Source: Methylomarinovum tepidoasis (GTDB lineage: Bacteria; Pseudomonadota; Gammaproteobacteria; Methylococcales; Methylothermaceae). Taken from it: 64,000 bases of DNA. Location: positions 1,689,001-1,753,000 of the forward strand of contig NZ_AP024718.1 in the NCBI RefSeq assembly GCF_030294985.1, in the 5' to 3' direction. The translations under genes were made by a program, and so were the position numbers. Of this stretch, positions 37,809-60,573 are shown piece after piece. Numbering within the stretch: position 1 is the stretch's first letter; each line of letters opens with the position of its first letter. The notes under the pieces are model-generated. The model searched no databases, had not been told where the DNA came from, and worked only from the letters and a program-made list of their open reading frames with translations.

Positions 37809-39953
37809 ATGCTGAAAGCCGTCGTCCGTCTGCTGCTGCGTCTTTGCTACCGTCTCCGCATCGAGGGGCTGGAACCGCTGCGGCGCTTCGAAGGGCCGGT
37901 GCTGATCGTCGCCAATCACCAGTCGTTTCTCGACCCGGTCATCCTCTGGGCCTTTCTGCCCGCTGGACCGACGTTCGCCATCAACACCCACATCGCCCGC
38001 CTGTGGTGGGTGCGGCCGTTTCTGCGTTTCGCCGAGGTGGTGCCGCTCGACCCGCTGCAACCGGCCTCCCTCAAGACCCTGATCCGGCGGTTGCAGGCGG
38101 GCCGGCGCATCGTCATCTTTCCCGAGGGGCGCATCACCACCACCGGGGCGCTGATGAAAATCTACGAGGGCCCGGGGCTCATCGCCGACCACGCCGGCGT
38201 GCTGGTGGTGCCGGTTCGCATCGACGGAGCTCAGTATTCGCCCTTCTCCCGTCTCGACTGCCGCTTTCCCCGGCGCTGGTTTCCCCGCATCCGCGTGGTG
38301 GTGCGGCCGCCCCGGGACATCCGCCCGCCGGAGGAAATCAAAGGCATCGCCCGCCGGCGCCGGGCCGGTGAAAATCTGGCGGCGCTGATGCGCGAGACGA
38401 TGTTCGTCACCACTCCCTATGATCGCACCCTGCTGGAAGCGGTCTGGGACGCCCGCCGCACGGTGGGGACGAGGCGGGCGGTGGTCGAGGACATCGAGCG
38501 GCGCCCGCTCGGCTATCATGGTCTGCTCACCCGGGTTCAGGTCATGGCCGCGTTGCTGCGGCGGCACCTGCGTCATCAGGGTCCCGTCGGAGTGCTGCTG
38601 CCGAGCGGCGTCGCTGCGGTCGTCGCGGTGTTGGCGCTGCAAAAGCACGGCCGGCTTCCGGCGATGCTCAACTATACCGCCGGTCCCGCCGGTCTGACCG
38701 GCGCCTGCCGCACCGGCACGATCCGGGAGGTGCTGACGGCGCGCCGTTTCGTCGAGCTTGCGGGGCTTTCCGAAGAGATCGCGGCGCTCGAGGCGGCGGG
38801 CATCGCCGTCCATTATCTGGAGGACTGGCGGGACGGGGTGGCCGCCTCCGACAAATTGGCGGCCTGGACCGCCGCCTGGTTCGGCGGTTCTTTTCGCAGC
38901 CGACCGGGGGCGGCGGCCGAGCCTGCGGTCATGCTGTTCACTTCCGGTTCCGAGGGGGCGCCCAAGGCGGTGCTGCTGTCCCACCGCAATCTGCTGGCCA
39001 ATTGTGCTCAGCTGGCGGCGGTGCTCGATTTCAATCCCACCGACACGGTCCTCAACGTGCTGCCATTGTTCCACGTCTTCGGCCTGGGACCGGGGACGCT
39101 GCTGCCGCTGGTGTTCGGCATCCGCACCTTCCTCTATCCCAATCCCCTGCATTACAAGGTGATTCCGGAACTGGCCTACGAGATCAACGCCACGGTGCTG
39201 TTCGGTACCAACACTTTCCTCCAGGGCTATGGCAGGCATGCCCACCCTTACGACTTTCATACCCTGCGCTACGTCTTCGCCGGCGCGGAGAAGCTCCAGG
39301 AGGAGGTGCGCCGGCTGTGGCTGGAGAAATTCGGCCTGCGGATTCTGGAGGGGTACGGCGCCACCGAAACCAGCCCGGTACTGGCGGTCAACACCCCCAT
39401 GCATTACCGCAGCGGCACCGTGGGCCGCTTTCTGCCGGGGATCGAATGGTGTCTGGAACCGGTGGAAGGGCTGGCGCAAGGCGGTCGCCTGCACGTGCGC
39501 GGACCCAACGTCATGCTCGGCTACTGGCTGCCCGAGCGGCCCGGAGAACTGGCGCCGCCGTCCTCGGGTTTCGGTGCGGGCTGGTACGACACCGGTGACG
39601 TGGCGATCGTAGACGACGACGGTTTCGTGACCCTGGCGGGCCGGCTGAAACGCTTCGCCAAGGTGGGCGGCGAGATGGTGCCCTTGAACGGCGTCGAATC
39701 CCTGGCCGCCCGAGTGTGGCCGGAACACCGCCATGCCGCCGTGGCGGTGGCCGATTCCCGGCGCGGCGAGGCGGTGGTGCTGGTGACCGAATGTCAAAAC
39801 GCCACCCTGGAAGCGCTGCAATCCTGCGCCCGCGAGCAGGGCGTTCCGGAGCTGTGGCTGCCGCGGCGGATCGTCACCTGCGCGGCGCTGCCGCTGCTGG
39901 GAAGCGGCAAGCTCGATTACCGTCGCATCCAGCAGCAGGTGTCAGCCGGCTGA
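37809..39953 (+). CDS. Aas-like fusion: acyltransferase and acyl-CoA/ACP synthetase
   Basis: 714 residues. The first part is a PlsC acyltransferase with N-H-Q-S-F-L-D (His37, Asp42) and F-P-E-G-R; the second is an AMP-forming adenylate domain with F-T-S-G-S-E-G-A-P-K, G-Y-G-A-T-E-T-S and Y-D-T-G-D-V-A. It resembles Aas, which reacylates lysophospholipid with fatty acid activated on ACP. It is shorter at the linker than the E. coli enzyme and has no clear transporter domain. The link with the CBS proteins upstream suggests control by nucleotides, which is only an idea. Confidence 0.88.
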   Translation: MLKAVVRLLLRLCYRLRIEGLEPLRRFEGPVLIVANHQSFLDPVILWAFLPAGPTFAINTHIARLWWVRPFLRFAEVVPLDPLQPASLKTLIRRLQAGRRIVIFPEGRITTTGALMKIYEGPGLIADHAGVLVVPVRIDGAQYSPFSRLDCRFPRRWFPRIRVVVRPPRDIRPPEEIKGIARRRRAGENLAALMRETMFVTTPYDRTLLEAVWDARRTVGTRRAVVEDIERRPLGYHGLLTRVQVMAALLRRHLRHQGPVGVLLPSGVAAVVAVLALQKHGRLPAMLNYTAGPAGLTGACRTGTIREVLTARRFVELAGLSEEIAALEAAGIAVHYLEDWRDGVAASDKLAAWTAAWFGGSFRSRPGAAAEPAVMLFTSGSEGAPKAVLLSHRNLLANCAQLAAVLDFNPTDTVLNVLPLFHVFGLGPGTLLPLVFGIRTFLYPNPLHYKVIPELAYEINATVLFGTNTFLQGYGRHAHPYDFHTLRYVFAGAEKLQEEVRRLWLEKFGLRILEGYGATETSPVLAVNTPMHYRSGTVGRFLPGIEWCLEPVEGLAQGGRLHVRGPNVMLGYWLPERPGELAPPSSGFGAGWYDTGDVAIVDDDGFVTLAGRLKRFAKVGGEMVPLNGVESLAARVWPEHRHAAVAVADSRRGEAVVLVTECQNATLEALQSCAREQGVPELWLPRRIVTCAALPLLGSGKLDYRRIQQQVSAG

Positions 39954-42074
39954 TTCCGGTACCGGGGCTGGTTTCGGCGATCGGCGCCGCTTGGGTGGTT
40001 GTTTGAGGTATTCCGCCGGTGTCTGGTACAGCTCCTTGAGGCGGAGGCGGAACTCGTTGGTGAGCACGAAGGCGTCGTGGCGGTTGCGCACCACCCTTGG
40101 GGTGATGAGCACCACCAGTTCCGTGCGTTTGATCCGTTCCGTGGTGGTGCCGAACAGGTGGCCGATGATCGGTAGTTTGTAGAGCCAGGGGATGCCGTCC
40201 TGGCTCTGGTCACGGTTGTCCTTGATCAACCCGCCGAGCACCAGGGTATCGCCGTCCTTGACCGCCACGGTGCTGGTGATCTGGCGCTGGATGATGGTGG
40301 GGTTGGGATTGCCCGGCAGCTGGCGGCCGATGTCGTCTACCTTCTGTTCCAAATCCATAATGACCAGACCGCCGGTGTTTACCCGAGGCTTGATCTTCAG
40401 TTGAACCCCGGTGTCACGTTGCTGATACGTAGCGGTGATGATGGGATTGGTGCCGCTGCTGCCGGTATTGGTCGCCTGCGAAGTCTGGAGAGAGATCTGG
40501 TCGCCCACGTTGATGGTGGCTTCGTGATTGTTGAGCACCATCAGTGAAGGGGAGGAAACCACGTTGAGTTTTCCCTGTTGGGCTGCCATTTGCAGAATCA
40601 CACCGATTTCCTGGGATTTGCTTTGCCATACATAACTGAAACCGGGTGCTAAGGCATTGAGAAGAGCCGTTTTGGCAGCGTCGCCCAGATTAAGTCCGTC
40701 AGTGCTGTATCCGGTGTTGCTGTATTTCTTGGGCAGCTTGTTCTGGGCGAACCATTCCAGCCCGTATTTGAGATCGTCACTCAGTGTCACTTCGATGATG
40801 GATGCGTCGATCAGCACCTGCAACGGCAGCCGGTCCAGGTCCTTGATGACCTTTTCGATTTCCCGGTACTGTTCCTGATTGGCGATGATGATCAGGGCGT
40901 TGTTGGGCTCATCGGCAATGATGCGCAGCGGGGTTTGGGTGCGGCGGGCGCTGCTCTGTGGCTGGTTGCGCCCCTTGAGGGTGACTCTCCTGCTGCCGGG
41001 CGCCACTTGGGTTCTCGGGACCTGGGTCTTGCCGGTGAAGATCTGATTCAGCGTTTCGGCCAACTTTTTGGCATCCATATTCTGGACCCGATAGACATGG
41101 ACCGAACCGGTTTCCTCGGATACCGCCCGGTCGAGGCGCTTGATCCAGGTTTGAGCCAGTTGCAGGTATTCCGGCTGTCGGGTGATGACCATCAAGGCAT
41201 TGAGACGGTCGATCGGGATCAAGCGTAAAAGGGAGGCGTCTTGCAGGACCTTTTTCCCGAGGGCCTTTTCGAGATCGGCGCTCAAGGTTTCGGCATCCAG
41301 GTTATGGAGCGGGAACAGCCCCACTGACATGCCCTTGAGGAAATTGACGTCGAAGGTGCGGACAACCTCGTCAGTGGCGCTCAATTCCGCGCTGGTGCCG
41401 GCCACCAGCAGTAGATTGCGGACCGGATCCGTATACAGCAGGGATTTAGGACCGAGCAGCGGTTGCAAGATTTTCTGGATCGATTCCACCTCCATGTAAC
41501 GCAAGGGATAGATCCGCACTTGAAAACCTGGTGGCAGATTGCTTCCGGTCAGGGACAAAGGTGCCCCTTGGGTAGCTTCGTCCATCGGTCCAATCCAATA
41601 GAAATCGCCTTTTTTGACCAAAGCCAGGCCGTTCATGCGCAGCACCAGTTCCAGGGCCGGGAGCACCTCTTCCCGGTTCAGGGGGCGGGTGGTCTGCAGG
41701 GTGATCTTACCTGCCGCCCGGGGGCTGAGAACGTAGTTGACCTTGAGAATGTCCCCCAGGATGACTTTGGCGACCTCCCCCAGGTCGGCGTCGTCGAAAT
41801 TGAGGGTGTATTTGCCTGGTTTGCGAGATGGGCGCGGATGACTCGGGGGACGAATCGTCTGTCCCGTGCCTAAGGTGATTTCCGCCTCCTTCAGCGGCGG
41901 TTCCAGCGGAGAGGCGCCCGCTTTGGATGGATTTTCCGAAGTTTCCGGGGGAACCGGGGGAACTTCAAGCAATTCCAGGGGCAATTTTTCCCCGGGACGG
42001 TGGGTCAGTGATTCGCAGGCGGCCAGTGCGCCGATCAGGGTCAGGGCGGTGATGGATTTGACGTGACGGATCAC
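39942..42074 (-). CDS. gspD: Type II secretion secretin (lipoprotein GspD)
   Basis: 710 residues from a GTG with an AGGAAAGAAG site upstream. The N-terminus is a lipoprotein signal (L-I-G-A-L-A-A-C, Cys about 20). N0 and N1-N3 domains follow (about 95-430; note Y-T-L-N-F-D-D-A-D), then the secretin core with V-V-S-S-P-S-L and T-E-L-V-V-L-I-T-P near the end. It forms the outer-membrane channel. A secretin with its own lipid anchor may need no pilotin, as in HxcQ. Its 3' end overlaps the convergent Aas-like gene by 12 bases. Confidence 0.9.
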   Translation of the reverse strand: MIRHVKSITALTLIGALAACESLTHRPGEKLPLELLEVPPVPPETSENPSKAGASPLEPPLKEAEITLGTGQTIRPPSHPRPSRKPGKYTLNFDDADLGEVAKVILGDILKVNYVLSPRAAGKITLQTTRPLNREEVLPALELVLRMNGLALVKKGDFYWIGPMDEATQGAPLSLTGSNLPPGFQVRIYPLRYMEVESIQKILQPLLGPKSLLYTDPVRNLLLVAGTSAELSATDEVVRTFDVNFLKGMSVGLFPLHNLDAETLSADLEKALGKKVLQDASLLRLIPIDRLNALMVITRQPEYLQLAQTWIKRLDRAVSEETGSVHVYRVQNMDAKKLAETLNQIFTGKTQVPRTQVAPGSRRVTLKGRNQPQSSARRTQTPLRIIADEPNNALIIIANQEQYREIEKVIKDLDRLPLQVLIDASIIEVTLSDDLKYGLEWFAQNKLPKKYSNTGYSTDGLNLGDAAKTALLNALAPGFSYVWQSKSQEIGVILQMAAQQGKLNVVSSPSLMVLNNHEATINVGDQISLQTSQATNTGSSGTNPIITATYQQRDTGVQLKIKPRVNTGGLVIMDLEQKVDDIGRQLPGNPNPTIIQRQITSTVAVKDGDTLVLGGLIKDNRDQSQDGIPWLYKLPIIGHLFGTTTERIKRTELVVLITPRVVRNRHDAFVLTNEFRLRLKELYQTPAEYLKQPPKRRRSPKPAPVPESAG

Positions 42075-42688
42075 GGTGACTTCTTTCCTGGTTTTTTGCT
42101 GGGTCGGTGGTTCGTGAACGGGTTGGCGAAAGGGTTGCGGGGACTTGGTTTCGTCCGCCGGGGCTGGGAAATCCTGCGCTTGGGGGCTTTGCGGGGTTTG
42201 ACCAGCTTGAGCGTGTGCGCCTGGCCGTTTTGGGTCAGGACGACGTGGTCGGCTTCGATGCGCTGCAGGCGCCAGCCGTCGATGGTTTCGTCCGGATGCA
42301 GGCGCACGACCTTTCCCCGCTTGTCGCGCAGCAGGATCAGGCGGGTTTCCGGGGTTTCCAGAATGCCGATCAGCTCGACCTCGGGCGGCGGTCCTTTGGC
42401 GGCGGCAGGTTCCGGCGTGGGTTCGTCGGCGCTTTCCTCCGCGACCGGACGGCGGCCTTCGAGAAACAGCGGGCGGGAGACGAAGGCCGACTCTGCAGAC
42501 AGCGGCGGAAGCTGGAATTCCTGCGCCGGTTCTGTCGCCGGTGCTTCCAGCTTGGGTGTCTCGACACCCGGCTGGGGTTGTAACAGCGTGCGGCGTAGGT
42601 GCGTGTATTCCGCTGCAAGGAACATCGCCATTCCCAGACATGCCGTTCCCAGGACGATTGTCGGCCAGTGTTTGCGGTGGAGGCTCAT
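42071..42688 (-). CDS. GspC/GspN-like inner-membrane secretion protein
   Basis: 205 residues: one N-terminal span (about 9-26), a proline/alanine-rich linker, a homology-region-like beta domain (about 100-165; V-E-L-I-G-I-L-E-T) and a very basic tail. It resembles PulC-type or GspN-like proteins that link the inner-membrane platform to the secretin. Similarity is weak; the call rests on position between gspM and gspD. GTGA overlap with gspD. Confidence 0.65.
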   Translation of the reverse strand: MSLHRKHWPTIVLGTACLGMAMFLAAEYTHLRRTLLQPQPGVETPKLEAPATEPAQEFQLPPLSAESAFVSRPLFLEGRRPVAEESADEPTPEPAAAKGPPPEVELIGILETPETRLILLRDKRGKVVRLHPDETIDGWRLQRIEADHVVLTQNGQAHTLKLVKPRKAPKRRISQPRRTKPSPRNPFANPFTNHRPSKKPGKKSP

Positions 42689-55657: not shown

Positions 55658-57721
55658 ATGGCGGCAGCCGCCGCGATGTCCATTCCTCCGGTTTTGAGTC
55701 TCAAGGGCGTCGGCCCGACGCTGGCGGCACGGCTGCAGAAGCTCGGCGTTTTCGACCTGCGCGACCTGCTCCTGCACGCTCCCATTCGCTACGAGGACCG
55801 GCGTACCGTGGTTCCCATCGCCGCCGCCGCGGGCAAGTGCCTGATCGAAGGCGAGGTGGTGCTCACCGAAGTGACCGGACGGCGCAGGCCGATGCTGGTC
55901 AGCCGGATACGGGACGGCAGTGGCGCCATGGACCTGCGCTTTTTCCATTTCAGCGCCGCCCTGCGTAACCGGTTGCTTCCCGGTAGCCGCTGGCGCTGTT
56001 TCGGTGAGGTCAGGGTGTCTGGCTTCGGTCGCGAGATGATCCATCCCGAACTGGAGCCGGCCCAGCAGGCCAGCGGGGGGATCGTGCCGGTCTACGCCAC
56101 CACCCCGGGACTCAGCCAGCGTACCCTGCGGCGCCTGCAGGGACAGGCGCTGGATCAGCTGGTCGCCGCCCCGCCGTGGTTGCCGGCGCTGCCGCCGGAA
56201 TCCCTGCCGCCACCGCTGCGGATGGCGCTGGTGGAAGCGCTGGCCGCCCTGCACCGTCCCGGCGTCGAGGCCGACCCCGCCGCCCTGACCGCGGGGCATC
56301 ATCCGGCCTGGCAGCGCTTGACCTTCGAGGAACTGTTGGCGCATCAGTTGGCTTTTCGGAACCAGGACCGTTTCCGGGCCGAGGGCAGGGCGCCGGCGCT
56401 GCCGCTGGTGGAGCAGGACCTGGAGCGGTTTCTGGCGCAGCTCCCTTTTCGGCTCACCGACGCCCAGCGGCGGGCGTTCGCCGAGATCCGCGGCGATCTG
56501 GCCGCCACCCGGCCGATGGGGCGGCTTTTGCAGGGGGATGTCGGTTCCGGCAAGACCGTGGTCGCCGCGCTGGCCGCCCTGTGCGCCGCCGCCAATGGCT
56601 GGCAGACCGCACTGATGGCACCGACGGAACTGCTGGCCGAGCAACACGCCCACACTTGGCGGACCTGGTTCGCGCCTCTGGGCGTGCGGCTGGCGCTGCT
56701 GACGGCCCGCACCGCCAGCCGCGAACGCCGCCGCCTGCTGGAAGCCGTCGCCGGGGGTGAGATCGATGTGGTCGTCGGCACCCACGCCCTGTTCCAGCGG
56801 GCGGTGGATTTCGCCCGCCTGGGACTGGTGATCGTCGATGAGCAGCACCGCTTCGGCGTCGATCAGCGCCTCGCCCTCAAGGCCAAGGCGGATGGGTGGA
56901 TCCCCCATTATCTGGTGATGACCGCCACCCCCATCCCCCGCACCCTGGCGATGCTGCGCTACGGCGATCTGGAGGTGTCGGTGATCGACAAGCTGCCGCC
57001 GGGGCGGCAACCGGTGGAAACCCGGGTGATGAGCGAGGCCCGCCGCACCGAACTGATCGCCCGGCTGCAGGATTGGCTCGCCGGCGGCCGCCAGGCTTAC
57101 TGGGTCTGTACCCTGATCGAGGAATCCGAGGTGTTGGCCGGGGAGGCGGCGGAAAAGACGGCGGAACGGCTCGCCGGGGAGCTTCCCGGCGTGCGCATCG
57201 GGCTGGTGCACGGGCGTATGAAAGGCGCCGACAAGGAAGCGGTGATGGCGGCCTTCAAGGCCGGCGACATCGACCTTCTGGTGGCGACTACCGTGATCGA
57301 GGTGGGCGTGGATGTGCCCAACGCCGGCCTGATGGTGATCGAGAACGCCGAACGCTTAGGGTTGGCCCAGCTGCACCAGCTGCGGGGCCGGGTGGGGCGG
57401 GGGCCGGGGCAGAGCTACTGCATCCTGCTTTACCGCCCCCCGCTGACGGAGGCGGCGCGCCAGCGCCTCGACTATCTGCGCCGCTGCCACGACGGTTTCA
57501 CCCTGGCGGAAAAGGATCTGGAACTGCGCGGGCCGGGAGAGGTGCTCGGGACTCGCCAAAGCGGGGCCCTGCAGTTTAAAATGGCCGATCCGGTGCGCGA
57601 CCGCCAATGGCTGCCCCAGGTGCGGCAGGCGGCCGAATGGCTCGAACGCCACGCCCCGGAACGCATCCCCCCGCTGCTGGCCTTCTGGATCGGCAGCGGC
57701 GACCGTTACGCCGACGTTTGA
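55658..57721 (+). CDS. recG: ATP-dependent DNA helicase RecG
   Basis: 687 residues. An OB-fold wedge domain (about 50-150), Walker A G-D-V-G-S-G-K-T (about 293-300), motif II D-E-Q-H-R (Asp394) and the later helicase motifs V-A-T-T-V-I-E-V-G-V and Q-L-R-G-R-V-G-R. It remodels stalled forks and Holliday junctions. It starts 2 bases after spoT. Confidence 0.96.
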   Translation: MAAAAAMSIPPVLSLKGVGPTLAARLQKLGVFDLRDLLLHAPIRYEDRRTVVPIAAAAGKCLIEGEVVLTEVTGRRRPMLVSRIRDGSGAMDLRFFHFSAALRNRLLPGSRWRCFGEVRVSGFGREMIHPELEPAQQASGGIVPVYATTPGLSQRTLRRLQGQALDQLVAAPPWLPALPPESLPPPLRMALVEALAALHRPGVEADPAALTAGHHPAWQRLTFEELLAHQLAFRNQDRFRAEGRAPALPLVEQDLERFLAQLPFRLTDAQRRAFAEIRGDLAATRPMGRLLQGDVGSGKTVVAALAALCAAANGWQTALMAPTELLAEQHAHTWRTWFAPLGVRLALLTARTASRERRRLLEAVAGGEIDVVVGTHALFQRAVDFARLGLVIVDEQHRFGVDQRLALKAKADGWIPHYLVMTATPIPRTLAMLRYGDLEVSVIDKLPPGRQPVETRVMSEARRTELIARLQDWLAGGRQAYWVCTLIEESEVLAGEAAEKTAERLAGELPGVRIGLVHGRMKGADKEAVMAAFKAGDIDLLVATTVIEVGVDVPNAGLMVIENAERLGLAQLHQLRGRVGRGPGQSYCILLYRPPLTEAARQRLDYLRRCHDGFTLAEKDLELRGPGEVLGTRQSGALQFKMADPVRDRQWLPQVRQAAEWLERHAPERIPPLLAFWIGSGDRYADV

Positions 57722-57735
57722 CCCCACAGCGATCA

Positions 57736-58350
57736 TTGCCTTTGAAGCCGCTCGCTCCCAGTCTGCTGCTCGCCAACGATCCGCACTGGTTCGTTCCCGG
57801 ATTTTGGTCCGCCAGGCGTCCGCCTCTCCAGGTGCTGAGCTGGCTGGCGGAAACCGGTTCCCTCACCGCCCGCCTCCAGGCCCTGGCCGGCACAGTGGAG
57901 GTACAGGTATTGCGCCAGGGGCGGGGCCGGGCGCTGGCGAGCGAACGCTGCCGGCTCGCTTACCGGCCCCGGCTGCTATGGGTGCGGGAAGTGGTGCTGG
58001 CACACCGGGGGACGCCGCTGCTGGCGGCGCGGACGGTAGCCCCGCCGGCGACTCTGAAAGGGGCGGGGGCCGGCGTTGCCCGTCTGGGAACCCGGCCGCT
58101 GGGGGCGCTGCTGTTCACCGATCCGGGGGTGCGCCGGCGGGGCTGCGAATGGACCCGCCTCGTTTCCCGGAACTGGAAAGCGCCGTTGCCGCGCCCCGAC
58201 TGGGGCCGGCGCATTCTCTACACCATCGACGGGCGCCCGCTGCTGGTCGCCGAATTCTTTTTGCCCTCCTTGTTCGAATTAGCTGAGGCGACAGCCTGCT
58301 CCATTTCCGCCGCAAGGGTAAATGTGCCAACTGCCACGAGATCGGCCTGA
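57736..58350 (+). CDS. ubiC: Chorismate lyase with an altered C-terminus
   Basis: About 204 residues from a TTG at 57736 (57742 is an alternative). L-A-E-T-G-S-L-T-A-R-L, R-E-V-V-L, T-R-L-V-S-R-N and R-P-L-L-V-A-E-F-F-L-P identify UbiC. It converts chorismate to 4-hydroxybenzoate for ubiquinone; ubiA follows 1.2 kb on. The normal family C-terminus falls near position 58280; the last 20-25 residues are read out of frame from a peroxidase fragment. The active part appears complete, so the protein may still work. Confidence 0.8.
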   Translation: MPLKPLAPSLLLANDPHWFVPGFWSARRPPLQVLSWLAETGSLTARLQALAGTVEVQVLRQGRGRALASERCRLAYRPRLLWVREVVLAHRGTPLLAARTVAPPATLKGAGAGVARLGTRPLGALLFTDPGVRRRGCEWTRLVSRNWKAPLPRPDWGRRILYTIDGRPLLVAEFFLPSLFELAEATACSISAARVNVPTATRSA

Positions 58351-58788
58351 GCGATTCGCTGTTCACCGACAACCGCTTCTACAATCTCGGGGTGGACTTC
58401 GAGCGACTGAAGGCCAAATTCACCCGTTTCGTCGCTGCCTACAGGCAGATGAAGGCAGGCGTCGATCTATGATCCCCGCGAGTGCTCCGAACTGGGGCGT
58501 TTCCTGATAACGGGGCAGGTGGCTGACATTGGTAAGTTTCGCACCCCCACCCTGCGCAACGTCAGCCTGGCCGGTCCCTACATGCACGATGGTAGCCAGA
58601 AGACCCTGGAGGACGTGGTGGACTATTACGATCGGGGCGGTGAGAAGAATCCCTTCCTGGACCCGGCCATTTATCCATTGCACCTGAGCGAACAGGAGAA
58701 AGCCGATTTGGTGGCCTCCCTGAAATCCCTGAGCAATCCGGCTTGCCTGTTCAGTCCGGGCAGTTTTCCCCGTTCTGGTGAGAGATGA
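58296..58788 (+). pseudogene. Remnant of a MauG/dihaem cytochrome c peroxidase
   Basis: Only the C-terminal haem domain remains, in two frames. Frame one (58296-58472) encodes K-G-K-C-A-N-C-H and F-T-D-N-R-F-Y-N-L-G-V and stops at TGA. Frame two (58471-58788) continues with G-K-F-R-T-P-T-L-R-N-V and P-Y-M-H-D-G, the conserved end of the family. A single lost base at about 58468-58471 would explain the shift, since D-L-Y-D-P-R reads through when one base is added. The N-terminal haem domain and start codon are missing, cut at the ubiC junction. Confidence 0.8.
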
Positions 58789-58789
58789 T

Positions 58790-59245
58790 TTACCCGGATT
58801 CCCACCTGCGGCCAGGCCTGTTGCGACCGCCACGTCCAGGCAGTCCTCCCCGTTCCACACAACGCTGGAAAGCGGGCAGATGATTGTCCCGGGAGGCTCG
58901 TTGCAATTCCTGCAACACCGCCTGCACATCCGGAAATTGTCTGGCCTGATCCAGCAGCCGCTCGTACATTTCCATATTTTCGATTTCCGCCTCCACGCCC
59001 TGTTGGCAGGCTGCCAACAGTGACGCAGGGGGTTCTATCCGCGTGGGCCAGTCATCCGCAGGAATCGGAACATGGTATTTTTCGAACAACGGCAGCAGCG
59101 CCTGGATATGGCGTTCCTCGGCTTCCACGATATTGCTGAAGGGCCTGACATCGCCAAATTTCTCGATGACTTTACGGTACAGGGCGCGGGCCTTGTATTC
59201 ATCCTGAATGGCCTCGTTGAGGATGGATGCGACTGTATCGTTCAT
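58790..59245 (-). CDS. Ferritin-like DUF2202 protein
   Basis: 151 residues, a four-helix bundle with likely metal ligands in Q-D-E-Y-K-A and E-A-E-E-R-H-I, then E-A-E-I-E-N-M-E-M-Y-E-R. This is the DUF2202 ferritin-like family. It may bind a di-iron centre. The C-terminus is basic and glycine-rich. The ribosome site GGAGAGA is good. It ends against the peroxidase remnant, and the local base composition is less GC-rich than the flanks. Confidence 0.8.
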   Translation of the reverse strand: MNDTVASILNEAIQDEYKARALYRKVIEKFGDVRPFSNIVEAEERHIQALLPLFEKYHVPIPADDWPTRIEPPASLLAACQQGVEAEIENMEMYERLLDQARQFPDVQAVLQELQRASRDNHLPAFQRCVERGGLPGRGGRNRPGRRWESG

Positions 59246-59503
59246 GATTCTCTCCAGGCTGGTTCATTCGGAACCGGCACCCAAGGTCTTGGCTGCTGCA
59301 AGCCACGGTTTCGCCGGTTGCCAATAATGCCATTCGGATGAAGGGTATCCTGTCTTGACATTGGGGTCCACTTCAAGAAGGCAACCGCCAGCACATTGTC
59401 TTGATTCTGCCTCGGCGTTTGGCGGAATCGGGGCGAAATAGGCTGAGCGTTCGCTTAAAATGCAACAATCTGGCACCAGAGAAAAGCGTGGAAAACCGGG
59501 AAA

Positions 59504-60388
59504 ATGAAATCAAGTGTTATCAATCGGTCGGTTGACTGGCGTGACCGCCTGCGGCAGTACGTCTATCTGATGCGGCTGCACCGCCCCATCGGCATCTTCC
59601 TGTTGCTGTGGCCGGCTTTGTGGGCCTTGTGGATCGCCGGGAACGGCCGTCCCGATCCTGTGATCGTGGCGGTCTTCATCCTGGGTGTGGTGCTGATGCG
59701 CTCGGCGGGCTGCGTCATCAACGATTACGCCGACCGCCGCTTCGACCCCCACGTACGCCGGACCTGCGACCGTCCCCTGGCGGCCGGCAGGGTCACTCCC
59801 GGGGAGGCGCTGATCCTGTTCGCGGTGTTGTGCGGGCTGGCGTTCGTGCTGGTGTTGTTCCTCAACCGGCTCACCATCGCCCTGGCCTTCGTCGCCGCCT
59901 TTCTGGCCGCTTCCTATCCCTTCATGAAACGCTACACCCATCTGCCCCAGGCCTATCTGGGGCTGGCCTTCGGCTGGGCGGTGCCGATGGCCTTCGCCGC
60001 CCAGACCGGTGCCGTGCCAGCCGTCGCCTGGTGGTTGTTGCTGGCGACGCTGCTCTGGGCTTTAGCCTACGATACCATGTATGCGATCGTCGACCGTGAG
60101 GACGATCTTCGTATCGGGGTCAAATCCACCGCCATCCTGTTCGGCCGCCACGACCGTCTCATCATCGGCCTGATCCAGCTGGCGATGCTGGCGGTGCTGG
60201 CCTGGGTCGGTCGCCTGGCGGGGCTGGGGGAGGGGTATTGGGCCGGTCTGCTGGCGGCGGCCGGCTTCATGGCCTACCAGCAGTGGCTCATCCGTGAGCG
60301 CGACCCTGGGCGCTGTTTCCAGGCGTTCCTCAACAACAATTGGCTGGGGGCGGTGGTGTTTCTGGGGATTCTGCTGGATTATCTGTGA
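59504..60388 (+). CDS. ubiA: 4-hydroxybenzoate polyprenyltransferase
   Basis: 294 residues with eight or nine spans and the two aspartate-rich motifs N-D-Y-A-D-R-R-F-D and D-R-E-D-D. It attaches the polyprenyl tail to 4-hydroxybenzoate, the step after UbiC. The pair is split by the peroxidase remnant and the ferritin-like gene. I used the ATG at 59504. Confidence 0.94.
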
Positions 60389-60486
60389 CGTGCGCTCAGG
60401 TGACGGTAGTGGTGCCAGCAGTAACCGACGCTGGCGGCGATGGTGGTCAGCAGACTGCCGGTGAGAACGAGTTCGACGCTGGACAT
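60379..60486 (-). CDS. 35-residue single-span membrane peptide
   Basis: [10 protein letters not shown] followed by a hydrophobic span (about residues 5-24) and a C-terminal tail with [11 protein letters not shown]. The ribosome site AGCGGAGGTATGAGTC is close to ideal, which supports translation. It ends 10 bases inside the 3' end of the opposite gene ubiA. No family known to me; too short for ordinary gene finders. Confidence 0.55.
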
Positions 60487-60573
60487 GACTCATACCTCCG
60501 CTGTGTGATCGTTTCGGGGTAAGCATGGTTCAAGGCGCCCCCGGCGTCTGTGACCGGACTCACGCTTCGCCGC

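Follow-up and report, generated by a model that had tools for sequence, protein, structure and literature searches.

A probable insertion of accessory DNA at the ubiC-ubiA junction of Methylomarinovum tepidoasis, with a remnant of a dihaem peroxidase gene

Background

Insertions of accessory DNA that leave pseudogene remnants in housekeeping operons are a well-known kind of event. The locus considered here lies in the window (the whole stretch of 64,000 nucleotides that was analysed, from the genome of the deep-sea methane-oxidising bacterium Methylomarinovum tepidoasis) and resembles such insertions in its empty site, its foreign composition and its truncated genes, but differs from them in that the breakpoint falls inside a stop/start overlap, which gives one protein a new C-terminus and the next a new N-terminus.

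Three described families are closest to its parts. With the UbiC chorismate lyases (PF04345; E. coli structures 1fw9 and 1jd3) the window protein aligns over the whole fold region and in the catalytic residues, and it differs from them by about 22 residues encoded by foreign DNA after the last conserved motif. The MauG/MbnH dihaem peroxidases (TIGR04039, TIGR03791 and PF03150) share their C-terminal haem-2 domain with a piece of the locus that differs from them in having no start, no haem-1 domain and a split frame. The IS3-family insertion sequences (NF033516) are represented by a 24-base stretch that agrees at every base with the presumed end of an element in a relative, but this presumed end stands alone, with no transposase.

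According to its description (PMC10950024), strain IN45 has a genome composed of a 2.42 Mbp chromosome and a 20.5 kbp plasmid, and Q-8 makes up 96.3% of its quinones; the main text makes no mention of ubiC, chorismate, peroxidase or pseudogene. A preliminary description of the locus had proposed that a deletion or insertion fused ubiC to a degraded dihaem cytochrome peroxidase gene.

Data and methods

The comparison set comprised nine same-genus relatives (G001 to G009), of which G003 is the nearest, and starts of open reading frames were taken as candidate codons. The order as a whole was represented by 301 genomes, in each of which two candidates were scored. The genes recG, comF-like, bioB and bioF were named by reading their proteins, without a family search.

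Results

The ubiC and ubiA genes belong to a run that consists of recG (55658-57721), ubiC, ubiA, the comF-like gene, bioB and bioF (features of the locus in Table 1). They overlap or abut in all nine same-genus relatives, and in G003 the ATG of ubiA lies inside ubiC, giving a 17-base overlap. When the window is aligned with the DNA of G003, similarity ends in ubiC at about 58280 and resumes in ubiA at about 59532, and the proteins encoded on the two sides are 94.5% (RecG) and 96.5% (UbiA) identical to those of this relative, the latter value being the highest among the nine. Roughly twelve bases, where the end of ubiC and the start of ubiA would overlap, have given way to the DNA in between. 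The lesion placed at 58260-58788 by the preliminary description is real, but the event reaches to about 59531 and takes in the ferritin-like gene, an IS-like end and a new start of ubiA.

Table 1. Features of the locus (positions in the window)
Feature	Position	Strand	Basis and remarks
ubiC, chorismate lyase	57742..58350	+	TTG start assumed; PF04345, structures, nine-relative alignment
Inserted DNA, about 1.25 kb	58283..59531		Missing here from 9/9 same-genus relatives; edges +/- a few bases
MauG/MbnH-like dihaem peroxidase, C-terminal fragment	58305..58788	+	Profile, structure and DNA alignments
DUF2202 ferritin-like gene, 151 residues, apparently intact	58790..59245	-	PF09968 32.9 bits, cut-off 22
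P-type ATPase 3' tip, last ~11 codons	59264..59298	-	DNA alignments to relatives
IS3-family terminal-repeat-like 24 bases	59352..59375	-	24/24 identity to a G009 stretch
ubiA, 4-hydroxybenzoate octaprenyltransferase	59504..60388	+	TIGR01474 338 bits, cut-off 275.45

The G+C content of the insert is 56.4%, while windows of equal length average 65.2%, and values as low are found in 5 of 1256 sliding windows, those covering the insert included. The sole other stretch of the window that is about as G+C-poor (40251-41749, step 250) falls within a secretin-like open frame (39942-42641, minus strand; named by reading only). Neither a target-site duplication nor a flanking repeat was found at the insert, just short chance-like pairs. 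The segment 59240-59540 has no second copy in its own genome (other matches of at most 25 bases, best E 0.64), and 59299-59350 together with 59380-59531 found no match among the 301 genomes of the order, with two candidates scored per genome. Across 57500-60500 no structured RNA reached the Rfam gathering scores, a consensus scan gave no promoter or terminator in 58200-59600 (chance expectation 0.5 and 1.4), and no sigma-70-like promoter was found for ubiA.

The UbiC protein scores 94.5 bits against PF04345 in a profile search (cut-off 23.6) and reaches a best E of 5e-18 against the E. coli chorismate lyase structures, with an alignment that runs as far as the conserved FLP motif. Against PRK11655, a stricter model of NCBIfam, it scores 81.1 bits, under the cut-off of 191. 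The catalytic Arg and Glu of E. coli UbiC (R76 and E155) correspond, by counting positions in the alignment, to R82 and E171 of the window protein, and this pair is invariant in ten sequences. Both the PF04345 score and the retained Arg/Glu pair place the protein in the UbiC family, and it is the single UbiC match in the whole window genome. TIGR04444, presumably the accession for a second chorismate lyase route, gave no match in this genome, the control having been detected in only 1 of 14 genomes and there below cut-off.

Beyond the usual UbiC end the frame stays open to the TGA at 58348-58350, and the tail that follows the FFLP/FFMP motif is 27 residues long here, compared with 5-14 in all nine relatives. 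About 22 of the 27 residues are encoded by insert DNA (from about 58283 to the TGA), and in the alignment the tail has no counterpart among the UbiC ends of the nine relatives. It is read in frame 1 and overlaps only the first peroxidase piece, whose own frame is frame 3, so the tail is without peroxidase sequence. An in-frame fusion was thereby ruled out, and UbiC and the peroxidase, to judge from their frames, are not a functional fusion. Of the earlier proposals, the extension of the UbiC frame by 20-25 residues out of another frame of peroxidase DNA stands, and an insertion with an empty site in nine of nine relatives did join two unrelated genes; a fused protein finds no support. The contrary case, a UbiC of the same length with no similarity to a peroxidase, was encountered in none of the nine same-genus relatives. 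At the other end of the insert, the start codon and the first ~10 residues of ubiA derive from inserted DNA, homology to the G003 gene beginning at about 59532.

The peroxidase fragment is read in frame 3 to about 58470 and then, from about 58474, in frame 1, which is also the UbiC frame. Its first piece keeps the haem-2 motif CANCH, and its second piece scores 82 bits against TIGR04039 and 62.8 bits against the MauG model TIGR03791 and has the di-heme enzyme 6e1c as the top match of a structure search (E 4.9e-19, 71.8 bits). The local DNA alignment score of the fragment is 653, compared with a maximum of 39 over 200 mononucleotide shuffles, and its DNA is 83% identical to an intact G005 copy. 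Descent from the family is indicated by identities of 82-88% to the G002, G005 and G009 copies and of 77% to that of G007. The 82 bits fall short of the TIGR04039 cut-off of 362.85, as do the 275-280 bits of three intact peroxidases of relatives.

The alignment with relatives that keep an intact peroxidase (five copies in four genomes) shows the fragment and its lesion in each comparison. The match begins at residue 203 of the 367 of the G007 copy, whose CASCH sits at residue 60, which agrees with the earlier claim that the first haem domain and the start are gone: about 200 N-terminal residues are missing, and with them the start, the signal peptide and the first CXXCH. CANCH is thus the only haem motif of the window piece, compared with CASCH as well in the four intact relatives examined, and no continuous frame with an export signal is present. 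A one-base shift had been proposed near 58470; all five alignments show instead a net 17-base deletion at about 58444-58468. The left edge lies at 58305 against two copies, with weaker similarity extending to 58279-58294 against three, and the right edge at 58775-58789 against four copies and at 58710 against G007. Judged by its sequence, the remnant is dead and could not make a dihaem enzyme. An origin by duplication within its own genome was ruled out, the two other matching genes being just 40 and 47% identical.

Tail to tail with the peroxidase piece, one base apart, and opposite in strand to the ubi genes lies the DUF2202 gene, whose protein scores above the gathering cut-off of PF09968 and which may still be working or expressed. 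Orthologues 75-79% identical are present in G002, G005, G006, G007 and G009, and no match was found in G001, G003, G004 and G008. In relatives a P-type ATPase gene lies upstream of the DUF2202 gene, and the DNA match that extends past the DUF2202 start (G005, G007, G002 and G009) stops exactly at 59298, inside the 3' end of the ATPase gene; the G006 match in this region stops at 59224. The suggestion that the ferritin-like gene belongs to the same event is therefore well founded, as the gene lies within the insert and keeps the 3' tip of its usual ATPase neighbour.

The stretch of G009 that is identical to the 24 bases at 59352-59375 follows an IS3-family transposase frame (NF033516, 297 bits, cut-off 160) and starts 51 bases beyond its final codon. 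The exact 24-mer is present in two of the ten genus genomes, once in the window genome, and occurs with one mismatch in G043 and with two in G010, where a motif scan found no transposase near these variants. Around a second transposase copy of G009 (79% identical), the 24-mer is absent within 7 mismatches in the surrounding 6 kb. Four of the 301 genomes of the order, its own included, match the part of the insert that holds the 24-mer, and the other three match only there. The insert holds one such stretch only, and not a transposase between two terminal repeats; from the position in G009, the 24 bases could tentatively be read as the end of an IS3 element. Past the presumed IS3 end in G009 (G009:C13:1061-1300, L102) lies the apparent start of another helix-turn-helix, transposase-like gene, named by reading only.

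A peroxidase search of 41 genomes (its own and 40 relatives) gave some match in 37, mostly distant. Close matches of 77-88% in long open frames are found in G002, G005 (two copies), G007 and G009, and G006 has an 80% match in a short frame. The DUF1264 gene that adjoins the peroxidase gene is found, among the ten genus genomes, in G002, G005, G006, G007 and G009 only, with no match in the other five, the window's own included. The same relatives have the ATPase at 73-100% identity (100% being the query genome, G005), the window genome having no match above 35%, the value of its best one. DUF1264, ATPase, DUF2202 and peroxidase are thus common to the same five of the nine relatives, the peroxidase being decayed in G006.

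In these five relatives the peroxidase and DUF2202 genes were not seen side by side, with the 3' side of DUF2202 out of view in G007: a distance of 1.95 Mb separates them in G006, and in the others they are on different contigs. By tblastn, DUF2202 was found in none of the 80 named peroxidase loci fetched, many of them short, and DUF1264 in 19. In these 19 loci (L110-L119, L122-L129 and L168) the DUF1264 gene ends 0.86-1.22 kb before the MauG-like C-terminal match, a recurring pair, and many of the loci are labelled as methane-oxidiser groups or mollusc symbionts. In the literature searched we found no paper naming both MauG and DUF1264, and none with MbnH, MbnP and diheme together.

A second, independently decayed peroxidase copy was read by eye in G006 (G006:C1, about 138.9-139.4 kb; L038, L108), where an internal loss has brought an N-terminal and a C-terminal part together, next to an open DUF1264 frame; the peroxidase gene seems to be prone to loss within the genus. 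Of the two peroxidase copies in the G005 bin, one shares 96% identity with the G002 copy at a synonymous divergence of 0.05 (G005:C273 and G002:C9; L104, L106), which suggests that the gene was transferred recently or that the contig is a contaminant.

Between the window genome and G003, dN/dS is 0.36 for the UbiC core, 0.10 for UbiA and 0.17 for RecG. For UbiC in other pairs, calculated on stop-to-stop frames, it is 0.18 (G004/G008), 0.15 (G002/G007) and 0.14 (G005/G009), and the higher value in the window/G003 pair could reflect some relaxation in this pair. Up to EFFLP, UbiC differs from that of G003 at 24 positions, of which 8 are placed in the window genome and 11 in G003, 5 being unplaceable; with 8 against 11 polarised changes, no faster decay of UbiC was seen in the window strain. 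Synonymous divergence from the nearest G005 copy is 0.52 and 0.70 for the two peroxidase parts, compared with 1.49 for ubiA of the same pair. Against G009 the values are 0.92 and 0.43 for the peroxidase parts and 0.86 for ubiA, so that they are not clearly lower; for the comparisons with G002, G007 and the other G005 copy, the peroxidase values are saturated or nearly so. These divergences would thus back a horizontal sharing of the gene only in part.

Discussion

The reading that we consider very probable is that about 1.25 kb of accessory DNA was inserted at the ubiC-ubiA junction, in one or several steps, and subsequently decayed; the simplest timing is after this lineage and that of its closest relative had parted. 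The insert would consist of pieces of two loci, one with the dihaem peroxidase and its DUF1264 partner and the other with the P-type ATPase and the DUF2202 gene, both presumably related to metal or redox stress, and what looks like a leftover end of an IS3-family element would lie within it. With the last codons and the stop of ubiC removed, the frame would run on through ~22 meaningless residues; with the start of ubiA removed, an ATG inside the insert would take over; and the overlap of the two genes, which would couple their translation, would have come to an end. The outcome would be a dead peroxidase remnant, a ferritin-like gene that possibly works and two active Ubi enzymes. As no target-site duplication was seen, transposition, transformation with illegitimate joining, and the settlement of an island followed by deletion are all possible routes.

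The last of these routes supposes that a larger stress island, with intact peroxidase, DUF1264, ATPase and DUF2202 genes, settled between ubiC and ubiA and then underwent internal deletions. It differs from the preferred reading by the order of steps only, so that our confidences in the two overlap, and taken by itself we hold it to be possible but rather unlikely. In its favour are the presence of all four genes in one and the same set of five relatives (with a decayed peroxidase in G006), the truncation of both the peroxidase and the ATPase piece, and the IS-like end; against it, no locus seen in those relatives has the peroxidase and DUF2202 genes side by side (with the DUF2202 3' side out of view in G007), the 80 named peroxidase loci, many of them short, gave no DUF2202 gene by tblastn, and the right junction cuts ubiA almost exactly at its start. 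We give next to no credence to an old insert that was precisely lost in the nearest relative and in the rest of the genus, for which nothing speaks except that the genes exist at other places in the genus: nine of nine relatives, the nearest included, keep the overlap or abutment, and it is implausible that exact losses restored the overlap time after time.

That the frame break and the join are an artefact of assembly or sequencing is very improbable, for the lesion is a net 17 bases and not a homopolymer slip, the ATPase tip and DUF2202 have the same order as in relatives, and the IN45 genome, according to its description, is complete and was assembled from PacBio and MiSeq data with Pilon correction (PMC10950024). 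An adaptive role, in which the added residues alter UbiC (for example in product release) or the new spacing alters the expression of ubiA, has a slim chance of being correct; UbiC and UbiA are still constrained (dN/dS 0.36 and 0.10), so both products seem to be used, but the tail comes from a frame unused by the peroxidase and has no counterpart in the nine relatives, and no sign of selection on it was found. Slimmer still is the prospect that the UbiC tail and the new ubiA start and spacing have been kept for an altered ubiquinone synthesis, for instance with less product inhibition of UbiC or with separate expression of the two genes, the chance insertion having thus turned into a functioning change of regulation.

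To return to the insertion with later decay, IN45 makes ubiquinone-8, and both Ubi enzymes presumably still work for that reason. 4-Hydroxybenzoate is thus presumably made and prenylated in this strain by the scarred UbiC and UbiA.

Conclusions

The locus is an everyday example of accessory genes that were inserted and then decayed, by a mechanism of a known kind, and in itself adds no new biology. The case is clean and fairly recent: DNA inserted into a stop/start overlap gave one ubiquinone enzyme a different end and the following one a different beginning. For annotation it is a warning, as neither the tail of UbiC nor the N-terminus of UbiA in this strain should be read as a family feature. 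The ubiquinone pathway evidently survived the insertion, and the locus hints that genes presumed to serve in stress are passed around, and fall into decay, among methane oxidisers of the deep sea.
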